The notes under the pieces were generated by a model. That model was not told the DNA's origin, made no database searches, and saw only the letters and a program-made list of their open reading frames with translations. A stretch of DNA of 64,000 nt. It comes from Phycisphaeraceae bacterium (lineage in GTDB: Bacteria; Planctomycetota; Phycisphaerae; Phycisphaerales; UBA1924). Position numbers and translations under genes: made by a program. This document shows, in pieces, positions 1,774 through 18,862 of this stretch (the stretch's first letter is position 1; every line of letters starts with the position of its first letter). The stretch lies in NCBI GenBank assembly GCA_019636535.1, contig JAHBXK010000006.1, positions 62,001 to 126,000 on the forward strand. The letters are read 5' to 3'.

Positions 1774-2208
1774 GCTCGGGGTCTCCTGACGGTGCTCGCG
1801 GGGGGGCGAGGGAAGGGTGGAGGGAAAGGGCGCGGGATGCGGTACGCGAGGTTCGCGTCGGGAAGGGTCGACAAGCGTGCGTGCGGGTCAAACCCGAGCA
1901 GTGGGGGTCGAAGAAGGGGCCGAACGGCGTTACGAAGGCCCGAAGTGGTGCGAACCGGGAGAGAATAGGCGGTGCTGACGCGGTTCCTCGTCAACAGACA
2001 ACGTTTTTATGGTTTGGCACGAGATTTGCAGCGCGTCGTCGCTGCGTCGGTACGCATCCGTGGCGAGGCAAAGCCGATGACACGGATTCCGCGGGAAGTT
2101 CTTGACTGCGAGGCGTTCAGCAGCATGCTCAAAGAAACTCGCCTCGGGATTCGGGACGTTTCGCGATTCGCTGGGCGGGAGGGCGACGGCTCGGTTGAGG
2201 AGCGGACC
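1774..2208. other. Intergenic region between divergent genes
   Basis: 435 bases between the transketolase start and the secreted WGEN-repeat gene. No coding region with its own ribosome-binding site is visible. It holds a sigma-54-like promoter for the rightward gene (2015-2029) and a leader of about 170 bases behind it. Confidence 0.6.
2015..2029 (+). promoter_or_regulatory. Putative sigma-54 (-24/-12) promoter
   Basis: TGGCAC (2015-2020), five bases, then TTGC (2026-2029), followed by A. This matches the RpoN consensus with the invariant GG and GC correctly spaced. It points at the secreted protein gene starting at 2209, with transcription expected near 2040. Sigma-54 promoters need an enhancer-binding activator; no activator site was identified. 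Confidence 0.55.
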
Positions 2209-2949
2209 ATGGCCCGAACGTGTGATGGCAAACGGGCGATTCGATCGTCGGGCTTCGGTGCCTTGCCAGTGACGGTCGCCGCCATGAGTCTCGCCGTTCT
2301 GTCGAGCGCGGTAGCGGGCCAGTCGAACGTGCAGCCCGCCAATAAGTTCGCTTGGGGCGAGAACATCGGGTTCATCAACTGCCGCGATGCCGACTCGGGC
2401 GCGCAGGGCGTCGTGGTGCGGCACTTCCGATTGTCCGGGTTTGCCTGGAGCGAGAATTGCGGCTGGATCAATTTCGGCGACGGATCACCCGCAACACCGC
2501 CGCACTATTCGAACGCGACGGGCGCGGATCACGGCGTGAACGTTGAGGCGAACGGCGATTGCTTCGGTTTGGCGTGGGGCGAGAACATCGGGTGGATCAA
2601 CTTCGACACACGCACGCAACTCGGCCCGTTCGGCCAGCAGGCGCGCGTCGACCGATCGGCCAAGCGGCTGCGGGGCTACGCGTGGGGCGAGAACGTGGGC
2701 TGGATCAACCTCGACGATGCGAACGTCTTCGTCGCGTACGACTCGCTCTGCCCCGGCGACTTCAACAACGACGGGGTGGTGGATCTGGCCGACCTGCTCG
2801 ACTTCCTTGGGCTTTGGAATCCCGCGCTCGGGCAGGCGGTTACGCCGGGCACCGGTGCCGACCTGAACGGTGACGGGGTGGTGGATCTGGCCGATCTGTT
2901 GGACTTCCTCGGCGAGTGGAACCCGAATCTCGGCATGACGTGCCCGTAA
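2209..2949 (+). CDS. Secreted WGEN-repeat protein with C-terminal dockerin-like repeats
   Basis: Function unknown. The frame is open back to 1972, but the ATG at 2209 has GAGGAG about seven bases upstream and opens a signal peptide (MARTCDGK then a hydrophobic stretch ending SSAVAGQ), giving 246 residues. Four copies of a short aromatic motif follow near residues 48, 78, 121 and 160: AWGENIGFINC, AWSENCGWINF, AWGENIGWINF and AWGENVGWINL. The last 66 residues are two EF-hand-like dockerin type I repeats (GDFNNDGVVDLADLLDFLG and a second copy) ending in GMTCP. The aromatic repeats could form a small repeat fold; this is inference. The gene converges on the membrane protein gene ending at 2970. 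Confidence 0.85.
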   Translation: MARTCDGKRAIRSSGFGALPVTVAAMSLAVLSSAVAGQSNVQPANKFAWGENIGFINCRDADSGAQGVVVRHFRLSGFAWSENCGWINFGDGSPATPPHYSNATGADHGVNVEANGDCFGLAWGENIGWINFDTRTQLGPFGQQARVDRSAKRLRGYAWGENVGWINLDDANVFVAYDSLCPGDFNNDGVVDLADLLDFLGLWNPALGQAVTPGTGADLNGDGVVDLADLLDFLGEWNPNLGMTCP

Positions 2950-2969
2950 CAGCGAGGTTGTGTCGACGG

Positions 2970-3920
2970 CTATTTCCGCTGTCCGGTCTCGACGTCTCGG
3001 CCGCGGAAGTGCCGGGTCATGTCGCGCATGAGCTGTTGGCCGCGGAGTTGCTGCTGCGGCGATGAGTGCTGCCCCAGACCGTTGCGGAGGAACGACGCCA
3101 TGCCCGCCATCGCGGCGGCGTCGGGGCCGCGTCCGCTGGCGAAGATCTCCTCGTCGCGCTTGGCCTGCCGGCGGGCTTCGTCCAGACGCTGCGCATCGGT
3201 CTTGTCGCTCTCCTGCCCGGCGAGCGTCTCCATCATCTTGAGCAGGTCGAGGTACTTCTGGTCGAGGTAGGCGGGGCGGTCGTCCGGCGGCACACCGACG
3301 TAGTCGATGGCGAACTTGTCCCACACGTCGAGGACGAGTTTGCTCGCGTTCTTCATCATCTGGTCGCGCAGATCGCCCTCGATGCTCGCGGCGAAGGCTG
3401 CCATCAGCACCGAGTCGGAGGCGCCCATGGTCTTGACTCGCTCGATCAACTGCCTGAGCAGGTCGAGCCGGGTGTCGATCGGCAGGCGGTTGAAATCGTC
3501 TTCGAGGAGGGTGTACTCGAGCACGGTGTCCATGGGCGCTGTGGCAAAGTTCGGCTGAGGCGTGGGCCGGAGCGCGATGAACGCCCACACCGCCGCGATC
3601 AGCGCAAAGGAACCGATCGAGGACCAGCGAACACGCGGGCGGTTCCACCACCATTTGATTCCAGCGCGGATGCGCCGATCGAGCCGAACGTCCCATCGTT
3701 CCTTGGCGGGTGTGGCCTTCGCGCTCTTGTGGGCGCTGCGGGCGCCGATGGCCGCGAGGTCTTCCGGCGTGAGCAGGCTGTTGCCCGCTTCGTCACCCGC
3801 CCCGTGCGTTGCGACGTTGCCGGAGCGCGCGCCGTTCGTGTTTGCGACGGCGCTGCGGTCCGGCGTGCCGAACCTTGGGGCGGATGAAGCGGTCGTCGGG
3901 TGTCGTGGCTCGGTGTTCAT
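2970..3920 (-). CDS. Single-span membrane protein of unknown function, downstream of a pseudopilin
   Basis: Not recognised. The ATG at 3920 has AAGGTGAG just upstream, giving 316 residues; the frame is open further upstream, but that part overlaps the pseudopilin gene. The first 110 residues are polar, then comes one membrane segment (FALIAAVWAFIAL, near residue 120), then a helix-rich, charged region with heptad-like stretches (LLRQLIERVK, LDQKYLDLLKMMETL). The C-terminus is rich in Gln and Arg. It begins 14 bases after the stop of the pseudopilin gene on the same strand, so the two are probably one operon. A role in pilus or secretion assembly is possible but rests on position only. Confidence 0.75.
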   Translation of the reverse strand: MNTEPRHPTTASSAPRFGTPDRSAVANTNGARSGNVATHGAGDEAGNSLLTPEDLAAIGARSAHKSAKATPAKERWDVRLDRRIRAGIKWWWNRPRVRWSSIGSFALIAAVWAFIALRPTPQPNFATAPMDTVLEYTLLEDDFNRLPIDTRLDLLRQLIERVKTMGASDSVLMAAFAASIEGDLRDQMMKNASKLVLDVWDKFAIDYVGVPPDDRPAYLDQKYLDLLKMMETLAGQESDKTDAQRLDEARRQAKRDEEIFASGRGPDAAAMAGMASFLRNGLGQHSSPQQQLRGQQLMRDMTRHFRGRDVETGQRK

Positions 3921-3934
3921 CGGCTCACCTTCAG

Positions 3935-4720
3935 TCAGTTGCATCCCGGCAGGGGGCGTCCGCCGAATCGGGAGATCACGTCGCAGATCAGGTCGCGGAC
4001 GATCTGATCGCCCGTGGACTGCACGTCGAGGCTGGCGAGCGGGCTGGCCCAGTCTGCCCTCCAGTCGCCGAAGTAGTTGGCGTTTCGGGCGACTCCGCCC
4101 CGCCGGACGTTGTGCCAGTCGTCGTTGTCGAGCATCACCGGCAGTTCGCGCCATCGGGGCTGCTCGTAGGTCTTGGTGACCGCGCGGGCCGGGTCGTTCA
4201 CGAGCGCCTGCTCAGCGCCGAGCATGATCGCCCCGGCGAAGTACTCGTAACTGACGCCCGCCGAGCGCCACAGCGGTTCGTAGTTGGTGGCCGAGTCGTT
4301 GCCGATCAGGTCGCTGGGGCACTTGAACACGTCGGCGACGTTGGTGAAAGGTGAGGACGGGTCGCCCGGCACAACGCGGACGGGTTTGGGCACGCTCAGG
4401 TAGATCGTCATCACGTCCAGGAGCGACAGATCGTTCGTTCCGGCCGTGTCGGGGTCGTGTAGCGGCCGGACATAGGGCAGCACGTCCTTGGAGTCGTTCA
4501 TGTACGTGGCGATGCCCTGACCGAAACTCCGGAGATTGGCCAGGCACTTGACCCGCCGGCTGGTCTGTCGCGTCGATTCGAGCGCGGGGAGCGTGAGACC
4601 GACCAGGAGCGCGATGATCGAGATGACCACGAGCAACTCGATCAGGGTAAAGCCCCTTGGTCGAGCGGTGACCCGCAAGGTAAGGCGGCGGGCGAGCATG
4701 CGAGCGGGGGGGGAGGTCAT
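3935..4720 (-). CDS. Type IV pilin-like / pseudopilin-type protein
   Basis: Exported protein of 261 residues with a classic prepilin leader: positively charged N-terminus (about 23 residues), then [20 protein letters not shown] with Glu at +5 of the mature form, as prepilin peptidase requires. The mature part resembles the large planctomycete family of pseudopilin-like proteins (often labelled DUF1559 or type II secretion protein G-like): it has the ..[20 protein letters not shown] segment after the helix. The C-terminus ends in GCN and lacks the H-x9-10-DG motif seen in the second copy at 17631-18620. The ATG at 4720 has AGGTG five bases upstream. Substrate and partner unknown. Confidence 0.88.
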
Positions 4721-4949
4721 GGCACACCTGTCTTCGATAGAGGAGATTCGGTCGATGTGCTCGGCTTGGAATCGAGTCGTTTCGGTCGATCGTGACTCGG
4801 GCAGTCCTAGGGAACGCGCAGACGCCGGACGGGTTGTCCGTGAACGCCCTCACATGTCATAAGGTATCGCTTTGGGTGCGTTGCACCCCACAGAATCCGA
4901 TGATTTGGCGTCTGGCCGGCGACCGCTGTGCACGCCCAAAGTGGACGGT

Positions 4950-5882
4950 TCACGCCCCGATAAGGCGGCGAGCGAGACGATTGTTCATCGCATGTCCGGT
5001 GCGGTGGGCGACGATCCTTCCCATGATCGGGCGTCCAACCGCGGCCACATCTCCCAACAGGTCGAGCAATTTGTGGCGGATCGGCTCGTCCTCGAAGCGA
5101 AGCGAGTTGTCGATCGGGCCGTCGGGGCCGAGCACGATCATGTCCCGCGGAGTCAGGTGCGTGAAGAGGCCCGTTCTTCGGGCCGCCTCGGCCTCGGCGG
5201 CCAGGCTGAACGTCCGGGCCGGGGCGATGTGCTTGCGATAGTCCTCCCGGGCGCTCGGATCATCGGAGAAGAAGGCGCGGGCGATGAAACCCCGGCGTCC
5301 GCAGAGGCTCGGCTCGATCGCGGGCGTCATGCCGGGCATGCCGTGATAGTCGAGGTGGTACTCGAGCGTCAGGCCGGGCGGGTCGCCCGGCCGTGGTGGC
5401 GTCGCTTCGATCCACGTGACCGAGTCTGCCTCGACGCGGACGGGTGTGGTGATCACAAGGGGAACGACCGATCCGCCCGAGTGGACAAGACCAGCGCGGT
5501 CGATCGCGTCGACGAACGGCCGTGCCGAACCGTCTCCGATGGGGATCTCGGGACCGTCCACGTCGATCCGAGCGTCGGTCACACCGAGGCCGGCAAGAGC
5601 CGAGAGCAGGTGCTCAACCGTTTGCACGCTCGGCGAGCGCGGATCTGTCGGGTCGAGCACCAGCACGGTCCTTCGGGCTTCCTCGCGAACGCGGTCGGCC
5701 CGCACGGGGAACTCGGGAGCGCTGGGGAGATCGGTCCGCCTGAATCTCCAGCCGTGCCCGGGCTCGGCCGGCGAGATACAGATGCGGCTCTTCGCAGCGG
5801 TGAAGAGCGTGACACCATCGACAATCGCGGCGGACGCGAGAGTCGTCGTTCGGACGGTGGTTTCGGGTTGAGTGATCGCCAT
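4950..5882 (-). CDS. lpxC: UDP-3-O-acyl-N-acetylglucosamine deacetylase
   Basis: Zinc hydrolase that removes acetate from UDP-3-O-acyl-GlcNAc, the committed step of lipid A synthesis; cytosolic. 310 residues, normal for the family. Zinc ligands by motif: H91 in TVEHLLSAL, H270 and D274 in FEDEPIRHKLLDLLGD. Predicted catalytic residues are E90 and H297 (AHRTGHAMNN). The EIPIGDGSARPFV and PARTF motifs are also intact. No strong Shine-Dalgarno precedes the ATG at 5882. lpxD lies about 2.8 kb away on the same strand, separated by a protease gene, so the two probably do not share a simple operon. Its presence implies a lipid A outer membrane. Confidence 0.97.
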   Translation of the reverse strand: MAITQPETTVRTTTLASAAIVDGVTLFTAAKSRICISPAEPGHGWRFRRTDLPSAPEFPVRADRVREEARRTVLVLDPTDPRSPSVQTVEHLLSALAGLGVTDARIDVDGPEIPIGDGSARPFVDAIDRAGLVHSGGSVVPLVITTPVRVEADSVTWIEATPPRPGDPPGLTLEYHLDYHGMPGMTPAIEPSLCGRRGFIARAFFSDDPSAREDYRKHIAPARTFSLAAEAEAARRTGLFTHLTPRDMIVLGPDGPIDNSLRFEDEPIRHKLLDLLGDVAAVGRPIMGRIVAHRTGHAMNNRLARRLIGA

Positions 5883-5933
5883 GCCGCGAGCGGGAGCATA
5901 CCCGCGGACAGGCGATCGGTCAGTCGCGGGCGA

Positions 5934-8516
5934 TCAAGGCAGGCAGTTCGCGCCGAGATTGGACTGCCAGAAGCCAATGAACGTCGTGAGATCAAGAAGA
6001 TCGACCTGTCCGCTGGCGTCGATGTCGGTCTCGAACTCGCCGCCGACTCCGCCGACCTCGGCGAGCCAGTAACCCAGGAACTCCAGCAGGTCGCCGATGT
6101 CAACGCTGCCGACGCCGTCGAACTCGCCCGCGCACGCCAGAGGGATGTCCGCAACCTGCTGCGGAGACGCGTGATTGCCGAACCCCGAGGCTGTTGCGGA
6201 AACGCCGACCGGCGTGGGCGTGGCGGTCGTGAAGAGCGGGCGGACACGCCACTCGGCAACGCGAGACTCTCCGCCGGGAATCGGACCCACCGCGCTCAAG
6301 GTGGGGCCGATCATTCTGAGCAGGACGGTCGTGGAAATGGTGGACTGAGCGGAGCCGAAGTTGAGGTCGCCGACGTTGGAGAGCGTGGCGCGGATGGTGT
6401 TGATCCGGCCCCTGATCAGCGTTGTGGGTTGGATCTCGTGCGAGAGCTTGGGGGCCTCGCGCTCCTCGAAGAGTTCCTCGGTCGCCAGGGCGAAGCGCTC
6501 GACACCGACGAGCGGATCGAGCGAGTTGCCCGCGATCGCGACGCGCAGGATCACCGGGCCGTCCTGTGCCACGCCGATCTGCTCGACGTTGTTGGGCATG
6601 GTGACCGACGAGGTGATGAGCGTTCCGTCGGGGCTGTACGCGTAAAGGTCGAGGTCGGTCAGGGCTCGCACGTCGATCGGCGTGCCGATGCTCTGATAGC
6701 CCAGGTGACGGTTCCAGACGAGGGTGGCTTTTTCGCCCGCGAACATGAAGCCCGAGTAGAAGCGCTCGCGCGGGTGTCCCGATTCGGCGTTGAGCGAAAC
6801 GGTTGAGACGAACACGTCGGGCGCGTTGACGAGCGCCTCGGCCATGTCGAGGTACCCCCAGCCGTACGTGGGGGACCAGTGGCTGCCCTGGAGGTAGAAG
6901 TCGTCCGCCGAGTTCGAGAGCGTGTTGTTGTCACTCATGGCGTCCGCGGTGTTGAGCAGGACGGCCTTGCCCGCGATCGGGTCATCGACACCCCGGGCGT
7001 CCGTCACGAGCAGGTAACACGCGCCGACGTGCGGCGCCGCGGCGGACGTGCCGCCGAAACTCGTGAAATGCGTGCCGCCCGCCCAGCCGGAGTTGGCCGT
7101 GAAGACGCCCTGGCCGGTGGCGGTGATGTCCGGCTTGCGCCGGCCACCGAACGTTGTCCCGCGCGAGGAAGTCGACGTGATTCGGTCGTCGTCGCGGGTG
7201 AGCGTGCCGTGGAAGGTCATGTTGGCCACGCCCATCAGGTTGTACGCCTGGCCGGGCTGGGTGATGGTGCGAGCGCCCGATCCGCCGTTGCCCGTCGACT
7301 TGGAGACCATCGTGGAGGAACTGTTGATCAACGCGTCGAACCATCGCTCGACGTCGTGGTAGTCGTTAGTCGTTGAGCCGAGGCTGAAGGAGATGTTGAT
7401 CACCTCGGCCTTTTCGGGCGCCTGAGCGATCATCCAGTGCCCGTGCAGCCGCGTGTTGTTGCCGCCGGCAAGCCCGACCAGGAAGTGAGAGATCGCGGGG
7501 GCGATGCCCTTGCGGGTCGCGTCGCGAGAGGTCATGATGCCGGTGACGGAGGTGCCGTGGCCGTTCGAGTCGGTCACGCCGACGCCCGAGGCGAGCAGAA
7601 ACGTGAGCCCGCCGGGCGCGAAAGCGGGGTGATTGGCCTGGATGCCCGTGTCGAGCGCTGCGGCGTCCCATACGCCGCCCTCGAAGCCGGCCGAGTGCCA
7701 GGGCGTGACACCGAGCGACGGAAGGGTGACGCTCAACTCGGGCTCGCCGTCGTTCGCGATGAAGACGCGGGTGACTCGATCATCGGCGAGCAGATCGGCC
7801 GATCGTCCCGCGGGCAGCACGATCTCCAGCCCGCTCACGAGCAGCAGACGACCCTCGACCTTGCCTCCGAGTCGTTCGACCAGCGCTGAGACCGCGTCCT
7901 GCTCGGCCTTGACGATCGGCTCGACCACCGCGCGGACTTCGTCGCGGATCGAGACGCCGAGGCGGTCCACCTCGGCCTTGATCCGGTCGATGCGTTCCTG
8001 AGCGCCGGGGGCGAGGAGTGCGCGAAACCGCGGCATCTGCTCGGCCCATTCGTGCTCTTCGCTTTCGCGCAGCGGTCTGTCGGGGAACATGGGTCGCTGC
8101 AACTCGCGCACCTCGGCCGTACGCGATGCGAGCAGCGGCTCGTGCGCATCTCGCACCGCCCGATAGACCTCGGGCCACGGGTTCGTCAGCAGGTTCACGC
8201 TCAGCCGGACGGGTTGGTCGGGCTTCAGGCTCTGGATCAGCGCCAGTTCGGCGGGGTCCATCTTGGGACGCGGGTTCGCGGCGTCGAACGCCAGCACCTG
8301 TTCGAACGTGTAGGCGACGCCCTCGCGGAACCACGTCGTCTCGGCAAAGCCCTCGTACACCCGCTTCTCGTACGTGAACTCGTGGTCGTTGCAGGACAGG
8401 AACGAGCCCCGCTCAACTTCAATTGGACCCGCTGAGGCGTCGGCAGCACCGTGCGCGCACCCAGCGCACAGGGCGAGCGCGAAAACGCTTGAGATCCGGG
8501 CTCTTGCATTGATCAC
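5934..8516 (-). CDS. Secreted subtilisin-like (S8) serine protease with degenerate dockerin-like tail
   Basis: 860 residues from a GTG at 8516, which has GGAGG nine bases upstream; the frame is open to 8615, but that start would bury the signal peptide. The hydrophobic leader SSVFALALCAGC could be a standard signal or a weak lipobox. After a propeptide-like helical region (about 60-270) comes the S8 domain with catalytic D289 (ALDTGIQ), H320 (SNGHGTSV) and S491 (GTSAAAPHVG); STGNGGSG carries the oxyanion Asn. A beta-rich region follows, then 66 residues with two divergent EF-hand-like repeats (GEFDGVGSVDIGDLLEFLG, DIDASGQVDLLDL). It probably acts outside the cytoplasm; substrate unknown. Calcium binding of the degenerate repeats is doubtful. 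Confidence 0.92.
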   Translation of the reverse strand: MINARARISSVFALALCAGCAHGAADASAGPIEVERGSFLSCNDHEFTYEKRVYEGFAETTWFREGVAYTFEQVLAFDAANPRPKMDPAELALIQSLKPDQPVRLSVNLLTNPWPEVYRAVRDAHEPLLASRTAEVRELQRPMFPDRPLRESEEHEWAEQMPRFRALLAPGAQERIDRIKAEVDRLGVSIRDEVRAVVEPIVKAEQDAVSALVERLGGKVEGRLLLVSGLEIVLPAGRSADLLADDRVTRVFIANDGEPELSVTLPSLGVTPWHSAGFEGGVWDAAALDTGIQANHPAFAPGGLTFLLASGVGVTDSNGHGTSVTGIMTSRDATRKGIAPAISHFLVGLAGGNNTRLHGHWMIAQAPEKAEVINISFSLGSTTNDYHDVERWFDALINSSSTMVSKSTGNGGSGARTITQPGQAYNLMGVANMTFHGTLTRDDDRITSTSSRGTTFGGRRKPDITATGQGVFTANSGWAGGTHFTSFGGTSAAAPHVGACYLLVTDARGVDDPIAGKAVLLNTADAMSDNNTLSNSADDFYLQGSHWSPTYGWGYLDMAEALVNAPDVFVSTVSLNAESGHPRERFYSGFMFAGEKATLVWNRHLGYQSIGTPIDVRALTDLDLYAYSPDGTLITSSVTMPNNVEQIGVAQDGPVILRVAIAGNSLDPLVGVERFALATEELFEEREAPKLSHEIQPTTLIRGRINTIRATLSNVGDLNFGSAQSTISTTVLLRMIGPTLSAVGPIPGGESRVAEWRVRPLFTTATPTPVGVSATASGFGNHASPQQVADIPLACAGEFDGVGSVDIGDLLEFLGYWLAEVGGVGGEFETDIDASGQVDLLDLTTFIGFWQSNLGANCLP

Positions 8517-8663
8517 GATGACGCACCTCCGGCTGAGGGGTTCCGGCGAATGTTCGATTGCCAACCGGCGCGCCAATCCGCAGACTCGTCGGCGTGTCGG
8601 CCAGTCTACTCGCACATTCTCAGGGAAATGGACCCCGCGGTCAAGACTGTTCGCGCATCAAGG

Positions 8664-9836
8664 TTAGGACTTTGCCTGGCATGCGTCTTTGCCGCGGGTG
8701 TGAATGGACCCGGTCGCATCGTGGTGGGCCTGACGCTCCAGTTTCCGCAAGACGCCCTCGTACTCGGCCAGACGCTTCATGACCACCTGCATACGCATGA
8801 ACATGCTGTGCGGTTGTCCGGGGTAGCCGCTGTAGACTTTGCCCTCCGGAACGTCGCCGAGGATTCCCGCCAGCGCGGTGACGGTGGCGCGCGGTCCGAT
8901 GGTCACGTTATCGGCGACGCCCGCCTTCCCCGCGACGACCGCGCCGTCGCCGATGGTCACAGAGCCGGCGAGACCCGCGAGGCCACAGATGACGCAGGCA
9001 CGCCCGATCCTGCAGTTGTGTCCGATCTGAACCAGGTTGTCGATTTTGGTGCCGTCACCGATGCTCGTGGCGCCGTACTTGCCGCGGTCGATGCAGGTGC
9101 CAGAGCCGATCTCGACCATGCTGCCGATCTCGACGTTCCCGACGTGCGGGATCTTGATGAGGCCGCGCCCCTGCGGGTCCGGTCGATAGCCGAAGCCGTC
9201 TGCGCCGACGACCACGTTGGCGTGCAGGATGGTCTTGGCGCCGATCCGGCATCGGTCATAGATCACAACGCCCGGGAACAGCACGCTCGCCGGTCCGATC
9301 TCGACATCCGCGCCGAGCGTGACGTTGGCGTGCAGCACGGTGTGCTCGCCGAGGCGTGTTCGCGGCCCCACAACGGAGTTCGGTCCGATCCGGCAGGTCG
9401 GCGGCACGACGGCGGACGGATCGACGACGGCGGTGGGGTGGATGCCCGGCTCGGGGGCGTGGGACGGCGGCTCGAACAGCGTGAGCACCTTGATCATGGC
9501 CTCGTCGGCGTCGGGCACGACGATGATCGCGCGGTCGTCGTCGCCCGGTGTCGGCGGCAGCGGGATGTTTCGGCTGATCAGCACCGCGCTCGCGGCGGAC
9601 TTGGACCACCTCTGCGCGTACTTTGAAGACCGCACGAGCGTCACGGAGCCATCGCGGGCGTCGTCGATCGCGCTGACGCGCTCAATGCGAACGTTCGGAT
9701 TGCCACGCAGTTCCCCGCCAACGGCCTCGCAGATCTGCCCGGCCGTGAAAGCGCGTCCTCCTGGACGCGAAGATGCCGACATCTCGGGCAGAGTGCTGGA
9801 GGCGGACGGGGAAGTCGGCTGAGCCAGCGTGGACAT
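8664..9836 (-). CDS. lpxD: UDP-3-O-acylglucosamine N-acyltransferase
   Basis: Transfers the second 3-hydroxyacyl chain from acyl-ACP onto UDP-3-O-acylglucosamine in lipid A synthesis; cytosolic trimer in the known family. 390 residues, somewhat longer than the usual 340 because of a 25-residue Ser/Pro-rich N-terminus and a charged C-terminal tail. An N-terminal uridine-binding-type domain ([16 protein letters not shown]) precedes a long left-handed beta-helix of hexapeptide repeats (about 130-330) with GADGFGY and IGHNCRIG, the latter carrying the His that is catalytic in E. coli LpxD. The ATG at 9836 is the first in frame. The S8 protease gene begins about 150 bases downstream on the same strand. 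Confidence 0.96.
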
Positions 9837-9906
9837 GGGCGATTCTAGAGGTCATCGGTCGGAGAGTGCGGATCGGGTCTGGTTCGGCGTCGGGGGCCAA
9901 GGAGAA

Positions 9907-9935
9907 AACCCCCCGCACCTCGGGTGCGGGGGGTT
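9907..9935 (-). terminator. Intrinsic terminator of the Ig-like secreted protein gene
   Basis: Perfect 13-bp hairpin: arms 9907-9919 and 9923-9935 with a 3-base loop. Read on the minus strand it is followed by TTTTCTCC. It lies about 50 bases after the stop at 9982 and insulates lpxD. Confidence 0.85.
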
Positions 9936-9981
9936 GCCAAGCGCGTTGGTTTTGGACTCGTGAAGTCCTTACGGGGCCGGC

Positions 9982-12528
9982 TTACGGGCAGGTCTGTCCG
10001 AGGTTTGGGTTCCAGTCGCCCAAGAAGTCGAGCAGGTCGGCCAGATCGACGACGCCGTCCCCGTTCGTGTCACCGTTGGTGCCCGCCGGGACGTTCTGGC
10101 CGAGATTCGGGTTCCACTGGCCCAGGAAGTCGAGCAGGTCGGCCAGATCGACGACGCCGTCGGTGTTGAAATCGCCCGGGCAGGGTGCTCCGCCCGCGAC
10201 CGTGAGCGCCACGGAGACCGTGTTGACCGTGCCGCAGGGGCTGGTCAGGACGCAGTCGTAGTTGCCCGCGTTGGCGGCTGTGACGTTCGTCATGGTCAGG
10301 TTCGTCGTGTTGGCGCCGATGATGCTGCCACCGTCGGAGAGGTTCATGCCGTTCCGCCGCCACTGGAACCCGGTCGCGAAGCCCTGCACGCTGAACATCG
10401 CGGTGTCGCCCGCGTTCAGGCTCTGCGGGGACGGTTGGAACAGCACCGCGGGTGAAACGGGGTTGTTGCCGCCCGGGGTGATGAAGAGGAAGCCGACGTT
10501 GTCGATGCCGACCTCGGCGAAGCCGGTGTTCTCGAACAAGTCGATCGTGAAGGGGCCGAAGCCGGGGCCGCCGAGCGCATCGCCGCCCGCCCAGGCGCAC
10601 GGCTGACCGTTGGGTCCGAAGACCCGCAGAACGAAGTCGGGCGTCCATTGCTCGGGCAGGCCCATGGGGGGTTCCTGCAGGAGGTTCTGTCCGAACTCGC
10701 CGAAGTTGTCGCCGTAGAGGGTGCCGCCGACCTCTCCGACGTAGTAGCCGATCGCGTCAACAACCGTGAAGCCGTCGAGCGCACCGGGATCGATGATGCC
10801 GTCGTCGTTGGAGTCCAGATCCGTGCCGATGGGCGGCGGGTTGCCGTAGCCCAGGATCCACGTCACCGAGCCGTTCTCGAGTTCGGGGACGAACGGGATG
10901 ACGCCCACGAACGTCTGAGCGTCCGGGGCGGGATCGAGTTGATCCGGGCCGTCACGAACCAGCAGCATGCCGTTCGCGCCGGTGAAGAAATCGGAGAAGG
11001 GGATGAGGTGATCGATCACGCCGTTGGCCGGGTGCGGCATGTTCTGGGCGTTCAAGTCTCCCTCCAAGCCCATGAACCAGTACCCGGCGAGCGAGGCGTT
11101 CGGCGTGCCGAAGACCTCGACGAACTCGCGGCCGACGTCGCCGCCATCGGGCGCGTTCACGAAAACCTCGCTGAGATAGAAGCGCTGGCCGCTCCACCAC
11201 GCCCGCTTGGCCTCCGCGGAAGCGGGGCCGCTGGAGAGTGCAACCTCGTCGACGCCGGCGGTGCCGTTCGAGTTGTACGAGAAGGTCGCCTGGCCGCTGC
11301 CGTTGGTCGTCTGCATGCCGCTGGCGCCGGTGTTCGGACCGGCCGTGACCGAGAACATCACCGACTCACCGGCCGCCGGATTGGCGCCGTTGAAAACCGT
11401 GACCGGAACCGTCGCCGAGGAACCCGCGGCGTTGGATCGGAACGACGGGTCGACGGTGATCCAGCGGATGGGATAGAGCGTGAACGCCGGCGCACCCGCT
11501 CCGCCCGTGACGTTGGAGGTGCCCGCCGCGCTGGCGAAGTACTCGGCCGGCGTGCCGGTCTGGCCGATGAACGTGGCGGTCGTTGTGCCGCCGGTGGCGG
11601 GGGCCGTGATCGAGACCGTGACGTCGGAGACGAATGCGGGAGAGGAGACCGTGACCAGAGCGGGGCTGGTGGTCGGCGCGGCCGTGAGCGTGACCTCGAC
11701 CGTTGCGGTTCCGTTCGCGATGAACGGTGCACCCGTGATGCTCAGCGTGCTGACGGAGGGGTTGACCGAGTCGACGACCGTGATGCTCGAGGCCGGCTGC
11801 ATCGGCGATGAGCCGGAGGTCCAGTTCGCCTGGTTGGCGATCGCGGTCAGCCAGTCGTCCTTGGTTCCGGAGACGAGGGTGCTGGTGTTGAAGGCCTTCC
11901 AGGCGTTCGAGTCGCCCGAGAGGTTGAACGTGACGGCGTTGTTGCCGACGATCGAGAGCCCGGGGGGGATGTCGCCGGTCTGCGTGCTGGTGCCCGGCTC
12001 GAAGGCGCCCGTGTCGTCGAAGACGAAGATGTGCGTCATGTCGGCAACGTCGACGATGATGTTCCCCGCCGACGTGCTCTGGAAGGCGTAGATCTGCTCG
12101 CCGTCCTGGCTCTGGCTGATGTGCCGATCCCAGTTGCCCGTCAGGCCGGGTCCGACGGACCCGCTCAGCCATGTCCAGTCGGTGGGGAAGAGATCGGCGG
12201 AGAAGACGATCGTGCCGCGAGGGATTGGGTTCACAGCGCGGAACGCGGTGTAGTTCTCGCTGGGCTTGCCCGTTGTGGCCGATGCGCCTCGGAAGCCCGT
12301 GCCCGTCCATCCGCTGTCGGTGAAGTAGATGGTGGTGTTCGGCGCGAGGTCAACGAACGTGACGAACGCGAACCAGTCGGGCGTGCCCGCGGTGTACGTC
12401 GCGATGACGGCGACGTCGCCTGCCGTGAGTGAGGTCTGGGCCGAGGCGGCGCCGTGCAGTGCCAACGGCAGCGCTGCGGCCGCGGCGACGGCTCGCAGTC
12501 TGTGCTTGAGCGATGTGGGCGGTCTCAT
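9982..12528 (-). CDS. Large secreted protein with Ig-like domain and two dockerin-like repeats
   Basis: 848 residues; AAGGAA precedes the ATG at 12528. A clear signal peptide (LRAVAAAAALPLALHGAASAQ) starts it. The mature part is Gly/Thr/Ser-rich and predicted beta-sandwich: an N-terminal region with DVAVIATYTAGTPDWFAFV and FTDSGW, a central repeated Thr-rich region (ITGAPFIANGTATVEVTL), then a stretch with LSEVFVNAPDGGDVGREFVEVFG that resembles lamin-tail-like domains. Near the C-terminus there is an immunoglobulin I-set-like domain (FSVQGFATGFQWRRNG ... AGNYDCVLTSPCG). The last 66 residues are two dockerin-like repeats ending LGQTCP. Likely a surface or extracellular structural protein. The lamin-tail assignment is tentative. 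Confidence 0.85.
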   Translation of the reverse strand: MRPPTSLKHRLRAVAAAAALPLALHGAASAQTSLTAGDVAVIATYTAGTPDWFAFVTFVDLAPNTTIYFTDSGWTGTGFRGASATTGKPSENYTAFRAVNPIPRGTIVFSADLFPTDWTWLSGSVGPGLTGNWDRHISQSQDGEQIYAFQSTSAGNIIVDVADMTHIFVFDDTGAFEPGTSTQTGDIPPGLSIVGNNAVTFNLSGDSNAWKAFNTSTLVSGTKDDWLTAIANQANWTSGSSPMQPASSITVVDSVNPSVSTLSITGAPFIANGTATVEVTLTAAPTTSPALVTVSSPAFVSDVTVSITAPATGGTTTATFIGQTGTPAEYFASAAGTSNVTGGAGAPAFTLYPIRWITVDPSFRSNAAGSSATVPVTVFNGANPAAGESVMFSVTAGPNTGASGMQTTNGSGQATFSYNSNGTAGVDEVALSSGPASAEAKRAWWSGQRFYLSEVFVNAPDGGDVGREFVEVFGTPNASLAGYWFMGLEGDLNAQNMPHPANGVIDHLIPFSDFFTGANGMLLVRDGPDQLDPAPDAQTFVGVIPFVPELENGSVTWILGYGNPPPIGTDLDSNDDGIIDPGALDGFTVVDAIGYYVGEVGGTLYGDNFGEFGQNLLQEPPMGLPEQWTPDFVLRVFGPNGQPCAWAGGDALGGPGFGPFTIDLFENTGFAEVGIDNVGFLFITPGGNNPVSPAVLFQPSPQSLNAGDTAMFSVQGFATGFQWRRNGMNLSDGGSIIGANTTNLTMTNVTAANAGNYDCVLTSPCGTVNTVSVALTVAGGAPCPGDFNTDGVVDLADLLDFLGQWNPNLGQNVPAGTNGDTNGDGVVDLADLLDFLGDWNPNLGQTCP

Positions 12529-12726
12529 GTTCGTGGAGTTCCTTTGAGTGCATGCGAGCGTGCGCGGACGATCCCCAACTGCGCCCGATCGATTGCGCGG
12601 GCGAGCGGCTCAACCTCCGGGCCGAGCAGGGCGTCAGGCTAGATGGTGCTCGGGTGCCTGCCCACGGCCCGAGTGTCAAGATTGCGTTCAATGTCCCGCA
12701 GATTCTGCGCAGCACATACGACAACA

Positions 12727-12756
12727 GGCCGCGCGATCCGTTTGAATCGCGCGGCC
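12727..12756 (-). terminator. Hairpin terminator of the matrixin protease gene
   Basis: Perfect 11-bp stem (12727-12737 with 12746-12756), 8-base loop, GC-rich. On the minus strand it is followed by TGTTGT, a weak U tract. It lies about 35 bases beyond the stop at 12791. Confidence 0.65.
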
Positions 12757-12790
12757 CGTCGTTCGATCAGGCTGGTTTGTGAAGATTCGG

Positions 12791-15379
12791 TTACGGGCAG
12801 GTCTGTCCGAGGTTGGGGTTCCACACCCCGAGGAAGTCGAGCAGGTCCGCAAGGTCCACGATGCCGTCGCCGTTGGTGTCGCCGTTCGTGCCCGGCGTCA
12901 CGGACTGTCCGAGGTTGGGGTTCCAGGCACCGAGGAAGTCGAGCAGGTCGGCCAGATCGACCACCGAGTCGAGGTTGAAGTCACCGGGGCACGGCGGCGG
13001 GGCGCACGGGTCTCCGTCGCACGTCGAGTCGTTCCCGAGGTAGACGCCGGTGGCGGCGAGGCAGTCGGCCTCGGTCCCGACCAGGCAGAGCACACCCAGG
13101 CAGCACGCACCGGTCGGGAAGCAGGTCTGCGCTTCGCACTCCGTCTCGTCGCCGAGGTACTCGCCGCTCATCGAAGCGCAGTCGGCCTCCGTCGTGATCT
13201 GGCAGGTCAGGCCGGTGCAGCAGGCGCCGGTGGGAACGCACTGATCGACGGTGCAAGGCTCGTCGTCGCCCTTGTAGGTGCCTCCCTGCGAGGCGCACGC
13301 GGACTCGGTGACGATCGAGCAGGTGGTGCCGACGCAGCAGGCGCCGGTGGGGATGCAGATCTGCGCGGTGCAGGCAACGTCGTCGCCGAGGTAGTTCCCG
13401 CCGAGTGTTCCGCACTCGGTGGCGGTGGTCACCTGGCAGTCGGTGCCGACGCAGCAGGCGCCCGTCGGAGCGCAGGTGTTGATCGTGCAGACCGTGCCGT
13501 CGCCCTGATAGACGCCCAACTCGTTGGCGCAGTTGGCGGCGGTCAGGATCACGCAGGACGGGCCGACGCAGCAGGCGCCCGTCGGGTCGGGCGGCGCGGA
13601 AGAGAAGCCCGAGTCGGGTCCGGCCAGCGGCTTGACGACGGAGTCCTGCACCACGTCGACCCAGTATTGGTACGTTGTGCCGCCGACGGCCGTGAAGTCA
13701 TCGAACTGCACGGCGGGCGGCAAGGGCGCACCGATCTGCGTTGCGAGGGCCTTGTTCGTGGAGGTACCCCGCAGGATGCGGTACTCGGTTGCACCGGTGA
13801 TCGAAGACCACTGGACGCGGACGCGGTCGGTGAAGTCGCCGTCGGTGGCCGACATCGTGGGCGTGCTGACGCCCGTGATCGTCAGCGTGTACAACTGGAC
13901 GTTCGACACCGTCGTCGTGGAGCGGACGCTGACGGTCCAATTGCCGGCGGGTGAGAGGAGCAGGCCGCTGCGACTCTCGCCCATGCCGATGCCGTTGGCA
14001 TCGATGCTCAGTTGCACCTGGCCCGATGCGTTGAGCACGTCGAAGGCCAGGTCGCGGATGGCCAACGCGTTCTCGTTTGCAGCGGTGTCAGCGGGACATC
14101 CGCTGGAAGTCGGGGCGTTCTGCTGGTAGGTCGCGTAGTTGGAACCGACCGGCACCAGCGAGATGTTCACCACTCTCGGCGCATCGACGCTGAAGCGGTA
14201 GAAGTCCTGCTCGGAGTTGTTGTCGATGCTCGTTCGTGAAGCGAAGGGCACGCTCGACTGCCCGACGGGCCAGGCCGACGGGTTCAGCGTCTGGCCGTTG
14301 GCGAGCGCCCCCAGCTCGGTCGCGGCGGCGAACGTGTTGTTGTTGCCGAAGAAGTCGCCGTAGTGGCGCTGCGCTGCGCGGACGTCGTCCTGGCGCGGCC
14401 CGTCAAAACTCGTGGAGAGGAAGGGCTCCATCAGTTTGCTGTTGTTGATCGGGCACGAGTGGGCGATGCCGAGGCCGTGCCCGTGCTCGTGCATGATGAT
14501 GTTGCGGGCGAAGCGGTAGTTGTTAGAACTGCTCTGCCAGTTCTCGGCCGAGTCGAGGACCATGTTGCCGCCGCTGCCGTTGCCGGGGAAGTTGTTGTAC
14601 GCCAGCACGCCGCTTCCGCCGTCGATGGGCTTCATGGCGATACGGATGTTGCCCCTCGACGTTGAGCCGCTGCTGCCCCACGAGGCGCCGTCGTCCCAGT
14701 CGTTGCCGCCGACGGTGATCCGCTGGTACGTCAGTCCGGCGACCTGGCTCCATCGCTCGAAACTCTGCTCGAACAGGCCGATCCAGAGTGCCCGGTTGTT
14801 GCCAAACTTGGAGTCCATCGTCGCGAACAGTGTCGACGGCGCTGTGCCCTCGCCGATCCCGTTGGGGATGCTCATTCCGTCGGGCACGAAACTCCAAGTC
14901 AGTTGTCGCGGGGTGCCCTGCGTGCCGCTCCACCGGCTGCCGAGGAAGAAGCGGTCGAGCCCGGCCATCGCCGTCTCGAGCATCTCGATGACCTCGGCCG
15001 AGGGCGGATCGTTCGGGTCGAAGCAGGCGGTGATAAGGGGCCGGCCGTCGGCGTCGAACATCGGGTCGAGCATCATGCCGCGGAACGGCTCGCCCTCGGG
15101 CTCATCGGGCTTGGGAGCACGGATGGACATCGGGATGCCGCGGGCTCGCACACCGCAGCCGAGCGAGAAGAGTGCATCGTCCGGACCGAAGAACCGGTTC
15201 AGGCCGCGCGCGGCTCGCGCGTTCCGCACATCCGACTGCGTGACGACCTCAACCGCTTCGCCGATCGCTGGCTGAGCACCGGCCGTGTATCCATCGGAAA
15301 GTCCGGATGCGCTGGGCATGGAGATGCCGGCAAGACATGCCAGGGACAACGTCACACCAAAGATCGATCGGATCGTCAT
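12791..15379 (-). CDS. Secreted matrixin-type metalloprotease with cysteine-rich repeats and dockerin-like tail
   Basis: 862 residues from the ATG at 15379, which follows GGGAAC and opens a signal peptide (IFGVTLSLACLAGISMPSASG); the longer frame to 15451 has no such leader. The catalytic zinc motif HEHGHGLGIAH is at 297-307 (HExxHxxGxxH, metzincin/M10 type), with the expected small residue and Met downstream (NNSKLMEP). A beta-rich region (about 380-490) and a fibronectin III-like stretch (VRVQWSSITGATEYRILRG, about 520-595) follow. Then come five copies of a PTGACC repeat (about 597-792), each with a regular Cys pattern and a GxYxGD turn. Two dockerin-like repeats end in LGQTCP. Probably cleaves or binds extracellular polymers; substrate unknown. 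Confidence 0.9.
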   Translation of the reverse strand: MTIRSIFGVTLSLACLAGISMPSASGLSDGYTAGAQPAIGEAVEVVTQSDVRNARAARGLNRFFGPDDALFSLGCGVRARGIPMSIRAPKPDEPEGEPFRGMMLDPMFDADGRPLITACFDPNDPPSAEVIEMLETAMAGLDRFFLGSRWSGTQGTPRQLTWSFVPDGMSIPNGIGEGTAPSTLFATMDSKFGNNRALWIGLFEQSFERWSQVAGLTYQRITVGGNDWDDGASWGSSGSTSRGNIRIAMKPIDGGSGVLAYNNFPGNGSGGNMVLDSAENWQSSSNNYRFARNIIMHEHGHGLGIAHSCPINNSKLMEPFLSTSFDGPRQDDVRAAQRHYGDFFGNNNTFAAATELGALANGQTLNPSAWPVGQSSVPFASRTSIDNNSEQDFYRFSVDAPRVVNISLVPVGSNYATYQQNAPTSSGCPADTAANENALAIRDLAFDVLNASGQVQLSIDANGIGMGESRSGLLLSPAGNWTVSVRSTTTVSNVQLYTLTITGVSTPTMSATDGDFTDRVRVQWSSITGATEYRILRGTSTNKALATQIGAPLPPAVQFDDFTAVGGTTYQYWVDVVQDSVVKPLAGPDSGFSSAPPDPTGACCVGPSCVILTAANCANELGVYQGDGTVCTINTCAPTGACCVGTDCQVTTATECGTLGGNYLGDDVACTAQICIPTGACCVGTTCSIVTESACASQGGTYKGDDEPCTVDQCVPTGACCTGLTCQITTEADCASMSGEYLGDETECEAQTCFPTGACCLGVLCLVGTEADCLAATGVYLGNDSTCDGDPCAPPPCPGDFNLDSVVDLADLLDFLGAWNPNLGQSVTPGTNGDTNGDGIVDLADLLDFLGVWNPNLGQTCP

Positions 15380-15633
15380 GGATCGAGTTCCCTTCAGAGC
15401 AAAGCAGCACCAACACATCACCGCACGAGCGTGCGGTGAATGACACGGCATCGCCGTCCCGCCGATGCGAGCCAGTGGGGGCGGGTGGCGAACGAATCGC
15501 TAGCGTCGGAGATGAGTCCTTCCCACGATGCCCAACAATTCGCAAAGAGTGTGTCATCGGCTGCGTTGGGGGCGAGTATTTTCACTGTTGGTCGGATTTT
15601 GATCGGTATTTCGGAGAAGCCCGGTGCGCAGTT

Positions 15634-16536
15634 ATGCTGCCGCCCATGATTCGGCAACCGCTCCGTGCTCCGCGCAAGCGTCCATGGGTTTCAGCCGCGA
15701 TCGGCAGCCTCTCGGCGTGCTGGGTGATGATCGCGGCGACTTCGGTGTCGGCCGAGGTGTTGCGGTTCGATTTCACCGCCTCCTCTGCGTCACAGGCGTC
15801 GTGTGTTCTGGGGGATTTCGCAGGTTCCGCCGGTGTGGTGGCAAGCGGTTCGATCACGGTGGATTGGGACCGAACGGGATCGCGTATCCGCGTGCTGTCG
15901 GCGGGTGCAACGGTGAGCGGGATGTCGGGCGGCGATGTTTTCGTGCCCGTGCCGATCGGCTTTCTCGGGCCGGTGAACGCGCGGCATCAGTCGATGACGC
16001 TCGACCTGGATGAGCCGTCCGTGTGGGCGGATCTCGCGCCGGAGGGCTCGTGGTCCTTGTCCGCGTTGCCGCTGCGGATGCATGCGCTTTGTTCGTACCA
16101 GGGCGATGTTCAACCGTGTGTGCAGTTGTTCAACACGTCTGGTGGCCATCTCCATTGCGCGCTCTCGATCGAACTGGGCGATCTTGCCCCGACGCTCGCC
16201 GAAGTGCATTCGGCGCAGATTTCCGAATCGGAGGGCACCGCCACCTTGTCTGCCTGCCTGCGTGTCCGCGTGCCGCACAACCCGTCGCTGCCGACACTGG
16301 CCTGGACGATGGCGAACGTCTGTTTCACGGCCACCGTCGCCACGACGAGCTGTGCGAGCGACGTCAACGCCGACGGCGTGTCGGATCTCGCCGACCTGCT
16401 GTTCTTTCTCAGCGAGTGGCTCCCGCGTTTGGGTGGTCCGGCTGAGGGGACGCTTGCCGACTTTCACCCCGACGGCGTCGCCGATCTGGTTGATCTGCTC
16501 GATTTTCTAGAGCTTTGGCTGCCGGGCTGTGCGTGA
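15634..16536 (+). CDS. Secreted protein with dockerin-like C-terminus
   Basis: Function unknown. ATGs at 15634 and 15646 are both in frame (300 or 296 residues); GGAGAAG lies a little far upstream of the first. Either opens a signal peptide (AAIGSLSACWVMIAATSVSAE). The mature part is a single beta-rich domain of about 200 residues with few charged clusters and several Cys (HALCSYQGDVQPCVQ). Two EF-hand-like repeats finish the protein (SDVNADGVSDLADLLFFLSE and DFHPDGVADLVDLLDFLE), ending LWLPGCA. The -LWLPGC- ending is shared with the protein at 52637-55129, whereas three other proteins end in -NLGxTCP. It is divergent from the matrixin gene. Confidence 0.8.
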   Translation: MLPPMIRQPLRAPRKRPWVSAAIGSLSACWVMIAATSVSAEVLRFDFTASSASQASCVLGDFAGSAGVVASGSITVDWDRTGSRIRVLSAGATVSGMSGGDVFVPVPIGFLGPVNARHQSMTLDLDEPSVWADLAPEGSWSLSALPLRMHALCSYQGDVQPCVQLFNTSGGHLHCALSIELGDLAPTLAEVHSAQISESEGTATLSACLRVRVPHNPSLPTLAWTMANVCFTATVATTSCASDVNADGVSDLADLLFFLSEWLPRLGGPAEGTLADFHPDGVADLVDLLDFLELWLPGCA

Positions 16537-16886
16537 GATCGTGATCGGACTCTTTCCGGATGACCGACCGCTGGCTTGAGTTATAGGGCTCTGAGGGCCC
16601 TTACCGACAGCGTCGGTCCGAGAATCGGACATTTTCCGGCAATTCCCGCGCTTGAATGTTGGAATTCGCGGGCCTCTCTGCTAACTTGTGATTGACCGCG
16701 ATGCTCGTCGTCTGCGGCGGTAATCCGCCGGTGCTGTTTCCCCTTTTTAGGGCAGCCCGGCCAGAGAGGGTGGAGGAGCGGAGGGGGAGGGCTGAGAGAG
16801 CGTGTTTGTTCTTGTCCCGACGCACGACCGGCGTCCGGCGTGGTTGCGCACACCGCTCCGGCCCGGCACTCTCAGAGGCCAGACCC
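16537..16886. other. Intergenic leader region of the PEP-CTERM gene
   Basis: 350 bases. The frame of the downstream gene stays open through part of it, but no ribosome-binding site or leader supports a start before 16887. It contains a perfect 6-bp hairpin (CGGCGG-TAAT-CCGCCG, 16715-16730) and a purine-rich stretch (16768-16799). No convincing promoter was seen. Confidence 0.4.
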
Positions 16887-17579
16887 ATGCTCAGCACCCG
16901 AATCAGCAAGACCAAGACCGCCCTCGCATCCCTCGTCGCCGCGCTCGCGCTCGGCCAGGCCGGTGCCAACGCCACCGTGCTCACGTTCGACGGCTCCTTC
17001 TGGACGGAGGATCGGGTCGTGCCGGATTCGTACGGCTCCAATGTCATCGGCAACACCAGTTCGTTCATCTACGGTCCGGAGTGCGACATCACGCCGGACG
17101 TGGTGGTGGATTACGTGGGCACGATGCGGTGGAAGAGCACGGGGTACGGCGACCTGCAGAACTTCATCTACGCCGATCACCCGTCCAACGCGACGCAGCG
17201 ATTCCTGACGGTCGTCCTGGCGAACACCGCCCCGGGAGACACGGTGGGGCTGCACTCGTTCGACGTCGCCGCGGAACTGGGCGAGACGCTCCGCATCGAC
17301 TGGATCCGCGTCTACCGCGACGGGCAGTTGGCGTACAACAACATCGAGCCGCTGATCCCCGGCGACGCGGCGAACCCCTCGCGGCTGTCGATCATGTTCA
17401 ACCCTCCGATCGTGGGCACGGTGGTGCAGATCGAACTCAACCTGACACGGCTGCTGCTCAAGAGCGAGCGCATCGGCATCGACAACATCAAGTTCTCGCA
17501 GACGAGCATCCCGACGCCGGGCGCGGCGTTGCTGTTCGCGGCGGGGCTTGGTGTGTTCGCCGCGCGTCGTCGTCGTTGA
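16887..17579 (+). CDS. Secreted PEP-CTERM-like protein
   Basis: 230 residues; the ATG at 16887 has GAGG nine bases upstream and begins a signal peptide (TALASLVAALALGQAGANA). The mature part is beta-rich with an FDGSFWTEDR start and no domain I can name. The C-terminus is a sorting tag: PTPGAALLFAAGLGVFAARRRR, that is a Pro-rich motif, a hydrophobic helix and an Arg cluster. In known systems such tails are processed by exosortase and link to extracellular polysaccharide. The motif is PTPG rather than PEP, a variant common in planctomycetes. No exosortase is in this window. It converges on the second pseudopilin gene. Confidence 0.85.
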   Translation: MLSTRISKTKTALASLVAALALGQAGANATVLTFDGSFWTEDRVVPDSYGSNVIGNTSSFIYGPECDITPDVVVDYVGTMRWKSTGYGDLQNFIYADHPSNATQRFLTVVLANTAPGDTVGLHSFDVAAELGETLRIDWIRVYRDGQLAYNNIEPLIPGDAANPSRLSIMFNPPIVGTVVQIELNLTRLLLKSERIGIDNIKFSQTSIPTPGAALLFAAGLGVFAARRRR

Positions 17580-17630: not shown

Positions 17631-18620
17631 TCACCAGTTCTGGCCTCTGTGCGTGAGCCAGCCGCCGTAGACCTCGCCCTCGAGTTCGTGGTACCTGAGC
17701 GCCGTCCAGCCGGTCGGGAAGAGTTCGACGGTGCCGAGAAACATGCCGTCTCGCCGGCCCTTGTCGGCGAAGACGCGGGCCGATCCGTCGGCGAACGCGA
17801 TCTGGCCGTAGAAGCGGCTGTGGTTCACCTGCGCGGTCTGCACGCGTGAACTCTTGCCGTGCGCCGGTCCGAAGTCCTCGTAGTTCTGCCGGCCGTACAC
17901 GATCTCGCCGGTCGGGGCCCGTGACGAAGCGCCCGGGCCGTCGCCGAGCGCCTTGGCGCCGGGCACACGCTCGCCGTTGAGCAGCACGGCATCGTCGGCG
18001 TTGCCGACAAGGATGGTCGCGTCGCCCATCAGCGGCACCTTGCTCAGGGGCGCAAGGTCGAGCCCGCTGTCGCGGAGCGGGCCTTTGTTGGTGTTCTTGT
18101 TCTTGAAGTCACCGCCCGGGGCCGTGGTCTTCTTGTCGGTGTGGGCCATGTACCACGCCTGGCAGTAGTTGGTGTTGAAGCCACGCTTGACGAGCTCGTC
18201 GAGTTCCGACTGCGACCAAGCCCGCCACCCGTTGCTCCGGTTGACGCGGTTGATGCTCAGGTTCTGGCTCGACCGTGCGGGGCTCGAGGGGCAGAGCATG
18301 TCGCCGGGCTTGCCGAAACCGCCGTTGACGAAATCGGCGACCCACCCGGCCTGATCGAGCGTCCCCCACGAGGCGTTCGAGTTGTTGTCCCACGTGCCGG
18401 AGGAGTAGTAGCCGCGGTTTTCGTTGGCGTAGGAGAGGGCGCCCACGGCAACCTGCCGGAGGTTGGACAGGCAGACCGACTGCCGGCCCGACTCGCGCGC
18501 TGAGCCCACCGCCGGCAGAAGCAGACCGACGAGCAGCGAGACGATGGCGATGACCACCAGCAACTCGATCAGCGTGAAGGCGGAGCGCGCAGCACAGGCG
18601 GGATGGACGTGCGTTTCCAT
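17631..18620 (-). CDS. Pseudopilin-like protein with H-x-DG motif (DUF1559 type)
   Basis: 329 residues from the ATG at 18620; an in-frame TTG at 18629 is possible. The prepilin leader is [20 protein letters not shown], with the +5 Glu. After the helix comes the conserved [27 protein letters not shown] segment of this planctomycete family, and near the C-terminus [19 protein letters not shown], the family's H-x9-10-DG motif. This is a second paralogue beside 3935-4720, and neither lies near pilus assembly genes. Such proteins are numerous in planctomycetes and are thought to be exported and processed by prepilin peptidase; their job is not established. Confidence 0.88.
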
Positions 18621-18862
18621 GCGGTCCAAGTCTTGCGGGATCCCCCGGCGGGGTGTGTGAAGGTCCGATCAAGACTGTGTAAAGGATGCGCGAAGCGGCC
18701 TTCGACTGTCCGAGTTTGCCGCCGGCACGCGAGCTGTCGGAGCGATCAAAAATCCTCGTGCTGCACGAATTTGCATCGGTTGCTCGCCCCTCGCCCCGGT
18801 TGGAGCGCTCCGACGGGCTCGCACCTACGATCGGACCTCGCTCTCTCCCTTGCGTTGCCTTC

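Follow-up and report, generated by a model that had tools for sequence, protein, structure and literature searches.

GC-type dockerin tails with paired cysteines on exported proteins of a Phycisphaeraceae bacterium and their possible role in docking

Dockerin tails in the window

In the window (the whole stretch of 64,000 nucleotides that was analysed, from a Phycisphaeraceae bacterium), six long ORFs end in an EF-hand-like tail, which in each case runs up to the stop codon (Table 1). A preliminary description made from the sequence alone had pointed out all six, and all were found where it placed them, except that the tail beginning at 52640 is three bases longer than given there (52640-52723). 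This tail has one repeat only, of 28 residues, and the other five have two. The endings had also been read correctly: three tails end in -NLGxTCP (x is M in the 2749 tail, Q in those at 9985 and 12794), two in -WLPGC (16351 and 52640), and the tail at 5937-6134 is degenerate, giving no match to NF041540.

Table 1. Positions of the dockerin tails in the window and of the proteins that carry them
Feature	Position	Strand	Evidence and remarks
Two-repeat GC-type dockerin tail, 66 aa, CPGDFN...NLGMTCP	2749-2946	+	NF041540 30.5 bits, PF00404 28.6 bits
Host ORF of the 2749 tail	1972-2949		Likely start near 2209, where the signal peptide begins
Degenerate two-repeat tail, CAGEFDG...NLGANCLP	5937-6134	-	PF00404 E=0.088 in the genome-wide scan; both Cys kept
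Host: exported subtilase (S8)	5934-8615	-	PF00082 E=2.8e-25
Two-repeat tail, CPGDFN...NLGQTCP	9985-10182	-	NF041540 31.3 bits; AF2 model; best Foldseek match 2y3n_B
Host: exported protein with I-set Ig domain	9982-12528	-	PF07679 E=1.7e-6; signal-peptide-like N-terminus
Two-repeat tail, CPGDFN...NLGQTCP	12794-12991	-	NF041540 23.9 bits, below cut-off
Host: exported matrixin (M10) metalloprotease	12791-15451	-	PF00413 E=1e-15
Two-repeat tail, CASDVN...WLPGCA	16351-16533	+	NF041540 28.7 bits, 0.3 below cut-off
Host: exported protein, function unassigned	15307-16536	+	ORF; signal-peptide-like start inside the ORF; no Pfam match of the body
One-repeat tail, CAGDFNGDGVWDLADLLDFLEVWLPGCP (...WLPGCP)	52640-52723	-	NF041540 12.5 bits over half the profile; both end Cys kept
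Host: one of five homologous one-repeat-tail proteins of the genome	52637-55129	-	BLASTP

The hosts had been described as a protease, a metalloprotease, Ig-like and propeller-like proteins. The Pfam matches support the first three assignments, and a Pfam search of 52637-55129 did not confirm a propeller-like body. All six tails are carried by exported proteins that are not cellulases, in keeping with the earlier remark that the hosts are not cellulosomal enzymes. Two prepilin-like proteins are also encoded in the window, both on the minus strand (3935-4720 and 17631-18629); such proteins are common in planctomycetes.

The tails belong to the NCBIfam family NF041540 (dockerin_GC), whose members are named "GC-type dockerin domain-anchored protein". 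The curated cut-off of this family, 29 bits, is passed by the tails at 2749 and 9985 and narrowly missed by that at 16351; those at 12794, 52640 and 5937 fail it when taken alone. The cut-off of Pfam Dockerin_1 (PF00404) is passed, among the six, by the 2749 tail only. The GC-type dockerin is already known but functionally unexplained, and its recognition in the window is a correct rediscovery; a literature search found no paper on GC-type dockerins.

The structure of the 9985 tail was modelled with AF2 (pLDDT 96.1) and contains two helices, at residues 13-26 and 47-60. Its end cysteines are Cys1 and Cys65. In Foldseek, the best match of the model was the dockerin 2y3n_B (probability 1.00, TM 0.55/0.59), and the top 15 matches against the PDB were all dockerin entries, led by a type II dockerin of Bacteroides cellulosolvens. 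A profile search with the sequence likewise ranked this dockerin first (PDB 2y3n, E=3.2e-10). As modelled, the tails fold as dockerins, with two calcium-loop/helix repeats as in the solved structures, and the Asp/Asn/Gly ligand pattern of their loops predicts, at the level of sequence, that they bind calcium.

Tails and hosts across the genome

The genome around the window comprises 3.56 Mb in 71 contigs and is 92.5% complete; its nearest named relatives, judged by transketolase, are Phycisphaerales metagenome-assembled genomes with 87% identity at best. NF041540 matched 69 places in this genome at E<=0.1, and 40 of these are over the cut-off (34 alone and 6 together with neighbours in frame). 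When 14 control genomes were searched, one gave a match and none a match over the cut-off; the count in our genome is far above chance. Listing all tailed proteins, a check proposed in the preliminary description, gave about 74 genes, five of which were added by a scan with Dockerin_1. The tail is indeed a recurring C-terminal tag, as had been claimed: 66 of the 69 NF041540 matches lie no more than 15 residues from the stop codon, and in 60 of these 66 a Cys is among the last 5 residues. Of the remaining three matches, one is an internal copy, and the ORFs of the other two extend beyond the stretch examined. At two loci (L054 and L060; G000:C34:1224-1388 and G000:C37:1484-1633) the dockerin pair is followed by an RHS-like stretch (NRKGYAGYEHEPWW) and hence is not C-terminal.

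A signal-peptide-like start, called by a simple hydrophobicity rule, was present in 60 of 72 complete hosts, as compared to 24 of 108 control long ORFs of the window. The hosts include proteases (S8, M10, M12B and trypsin) and P-domain, lamin-tail, Ig, cadherin, FG-GAP, cytochrome and oxidase proteins; carbohydrate enzymes are few, with isolated amylase and GH57 matches only. By BLASTP, 71 host bodies fall into 38 groups, the largest of which (n=28) is held together by partial matches and may comprise more than one family. The tail genes are clustered, with 25 neighbouring pairs less than 6 kb apart vs. 8.6 expected under random placement; on contig G000:C18, nine lie within 50 kb, where about one is expected. 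Two relatives contain at least 150 tails each, and one of them (G030) is a single-contig genome of 3.6 Mb. Among the members of the order, f1 and f4 are tail-rich, and no tails were found in f2, f3 and f5.

One-repeat tails are found in six proteins of the genome, that at 52640 and five others. Five of the six read C[AG]GDYNxDGVWDLADLLDFLExWLPGCP or nearly so, and five of the six hosts are mutually homologous over about 400 residues; the protein encoded at 52637-55129 shares 27-33% identity with the other four of this group over 365-389 residues (BLASTP). Since the one-repeat tails keep both cysteines, the clasp discussed below may matter even in half a dockerin.

The thirty full-length tails of this genome have a mean protein identity of 77%. 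Where their residues are identical, the codons match in 56.2% of cases, vs. 53.6% expected from the codon usage of the tails, and four-fold sites match in 46.1% vs. 43.2% expected. Between tails whose host bodies belong to different groups, the protein identity is 76% and codons match in 54.9% vs. 53.5% expected. The synonymous sites are close to saturated, and recent duplication or gene conversion between proteins was discarded as the cause of tail uniformity, considering that codon matches are near-random; a few tail pairs share up to 90% of their codons. High protein identity combined with near-random synonymous codons points to selection on the protein rather than recent copying. The uniformity of the tails is kept at the protein level, as would be expected if all of them had to fit one partner. 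Repeats 1 and 2 of the same tail share 70% of their codons vs. 50% expected, which exceeds the level between proteins and indicates some internal homogenisation.

Cysteine pair and recognition positions

The cysteines at the two ends of the domain were counted in 148 tails from 29 genomes. The count was anchored on the alignment, the N-terminal Cys being sought 2-4 residues before the first Asp of the first calcium loop and the C-terminal Cys within the last five residues. Both were present in 135 tails, neither in 10, only the C-terminal one in 3 and only the N-terminal one in none (Fisher p=2.8e-13, an optimistic value, considering that the sequences are related). The sample was mostly drawn by a model containing the terminal Cys. 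The ten tails lacking both are spread over five genomes, and in two of the three with only the C-terminal Cys, position 7 of the first loop is a Cys instead. When the N-terminal Cys was sought up to six residues out, three tails with only this Cys were added, all having it at the sixth residue. In a sample of the class drawn with Dockerin_1, neither Cys was present in 15 of 18 C-terminal domains. The head and the tail of a C. thermocellum dockerin are joined by a clasp made by ring-stacking of Tyr5 and Pro66 (PMC4728124); as this clasp sits at the same ends of the dockerin, a disulfide is the simplest reading of the Cys pair. The pattern suggests a disulfide clasp at the ends of the domain and not a sorting Cys, and the bond itself probably forms, judging from the pairing of the two residues. 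A search for VKOR, with oxidative folding in mind, gave a weak match below the cut-off.

The tails are worded differently from genus to genus: the repeats read VVDLADLLDFLG in this genome, ELTIFDFLAFQN in genus g2, VVNTLDFIAFLN in g12, LDFFDVQAFLN in g8, VTIADLNYYIG in g14 and VDAADFFYYLD in g17. Within a tail, repeats 1 and 2 are 78% identical (positions 7-18); the identity of tails between genera is 32%. When six genera were compared, positions 10 and 14 of the repeat carried the strongest signal for the genus, followed by 15, 18, 11 and 13, in both repeats; the signal is nil at positions 5, 6 and 12, which are the Asp and Gly of the loop, and lower than expected at position 17. In cellulosomal dockerins, recognition is putatively assigned to positions 10, 11, 17 and 18 (PMC3413522), and the repetition of recognition residues underlies the dual binding mode of these dockerins (PMC4728124). 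By this analysis, the genus-specific wording, doubled in both halves of the tail, falls mainly at the positions by which cellulosomal dockerins recognise cohesins, an argument that relies on homology with the cellulosomal domains. The wording could also partly reflect a small number of founders per genus.

Docking partners and comparison with known systems

The preliminary description had noted that no cohesins were visible and had proposed a search for cohesin-like partners. This search agrees with it, in that no cohesin was found in the genome with PF00963, with a profile built from 28 class cohesins or with a second class profile nearer to the family. With PF00963 and the second class profile, two single-contig relatives (G030 and G231) also gave no credible cohesin, the only match in G030 having E=0.58. 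Within the family, all 23 sampled genomes contain at least 20 tails (the counts being lower bounds), with one PF00963 match, below the curated cut-off; the more sensitive planctomycete profile built from 28 cohesins gave a convincing cohesin in about 9 of 61 family genomes. In the class, cohesins are present in 43 of 248 genomes. Counted by hand, PF00963 matches were obtained in only 4 of about 40 tail-rich genomes, one of them below the cut-off. A cohesin was rejected as the general partner, as there is no class-wide association: cohesins occur in 21 of 112 genomes with GC-type tails vs. 22 of 136 without tails (hand count). This lack of association, together with the single-contig genome G030, where at least 150 tails were counted but no credible cohesin was found, indicates that a missing contig is not a general explanation. 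The cohesin protein of one relative (L193, G288:C162) itself ends in a GC-type tail and has an adaptor-like architecture. In three other proteins of relatives (L130, L195 and L197), a cohesin-like domain precedes a calcium-loop stretch that lies close to the C-terminal end and lacks the terminal Cys.

We consider it most probable, with a probability of about 0.58, that the clasped dockerin serves to dock many surface proteins on a single receptor, which they share and which is specific to the lineage. The host protein would be exported by Sec, its tail would fold with calcium, and the disulfide clasp would close between the ends of the domain; one face of either repeat would then dock the host onto a single receptor at the cell surface or in the envelope. 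This receptor would be specific to the genus and would not be a cohesin that present profiles can recognise. It is probable that such a receptor exists and has gone unrecognised, considering that even the closed genomes of relatives gave no known docking partner, and the negative cohesin searches are the reason why we propose docking without naming a partner. The broader proposal, that surface docking in Phycisphaerales is independent of cohesins and that in each genus one uncharacterised receptor reads the genus's own disulfide-clasped dockerin code on exported proteins that number from dozens to more than 150, is more tentative, and we give it somewhat less than an even chance.

That the tail docks onto a true cohesin which was missed, because it is too diverged, lies in an assembly gap or comes from another species, appears unlikely. 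The occurrence of cohesins in part of the family and of the class, and the GC-type tail on the G288 cohesin protein, speak for it, and the negative profile searches in this genome and in G030 and G231, with the scarcity of PF00963 matches among tail-rich genomes, speak against it. The preliminary description had favoured a sorting or anchoring signal over docking. Anchoring is plausible, by way of docking; sorting instead of docking agrees poorly with the dockerin fold, the recognition positions and the Cys pair. An enzyme of the export or envelope machinery that processes or lipidates the terminal Cys, as with other CTERM tags, has a still smaller chance of being the explanation. The strictly terminal place of the tail, the Cys in the last residues, the dozens of unrelated hosts with signal peptides and the NCBIfam name, which calls the hosts "anchored", would all suit such an enzyme, which would not require a second Cys upstream, at the domain's opposite end. 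Moreover, the tail is a folded dockerin in which neither the hydrophobic helix nor the basic end of PEP-CTERM-type signals is found. The genome already contains one exosortase (G000:C14:15660-16442) and, adjoining a dockerin-tailed gene of the window, a candidate substrate for it, an exported PEP-CTERM-like protein that ends in PTPGAALLFAAGLGVFAARRRR (16692-17579, plus strand), so that two C-terminal tagging systems appear to coexist. On the sequences and the model, anchoring by docking to a partner would fit better than a sorting signal.

Two further readings do without a receptor, and both seem improbable. A calcium-dependent folding cap that shields the C-terminus from proteases would be well served by calcium loops and paired cysteines, and several hosts are proteases; such a cap, which we regard as very unlikely, would have no need of recognition positions whose residues are specific to the genus and repeated in both halves, nor of uniform tails with near-random codons on unrelated hosts. 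The least probable reading is that the tails bind each other and build a surface matrix, which would account for the missing cohesins, the genus-specific self-recognition and the symmetry of the repeats; we know of no homotypic pairing of dockerins between proteins in such a matrix-building role.

A dockerin is known as half of a pair, and this family of Phycisphaerales has very many dockerins, mostly with no detectable other half, also in single-contig genomes. The rule that the cysteines come in pairs may explain the family name "GC" and leads to a simple chemical prediction, and the genus-specific code is a route to the receptor through co-variation. A receptor common to so many exported proteins, if it exists, would be an entry point into the surface biology of planctomycetes, and a compact clasped docking tag could serve in protein display.

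Compared to NF041540 as a whole, the local tails have the same length, C-terminal place and Cys at the end, but they end more often in -NLGxTCP than in -GC, and their one-repeat and degenerate forms score below its cut-off. PEP-CTERM/exosortase sorting likewise puts one C-terminal tag on many unrelated exported proteins; the tag studied here differs in being a folded soluble domain, and the exosortase of the genome is separate from it. In the "Planctosome" proposed for the freshwater Nemodlikiaceae (PMC6461901), dockerins likewise occur together with exported peptidases and with proteins that have P-domains or lamin-tail domains, but that model needs a cohesin on anchoring and adaptor proteins, and none was found in this genome. 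A clasped dockerin on a subtilase is known from Clo1313_0689, an S8 protease of C. thermocellum whose double dockerin has been proposed to hold it at the cell surface (reviewed in PMC12484212); this dockerin binds a known cohesin, and its clasp is not described as a disulfide in PMC12484212. A cellulosome is not what was found here, as no scaffoldin cohesin was detected and the dockerin hosts are not mainly plant-cell-wall hydrolases. The local tails differ from the type I dockerins of cellulosomes (PF00404) in their paired end cysteines, in hosts that are mostly not glycoside hydrolases and in a genome with no detected cohesin, and share with them the two F-hand repeats, the dockerin fold, the internal symmetry and the species-specific recognition positions.
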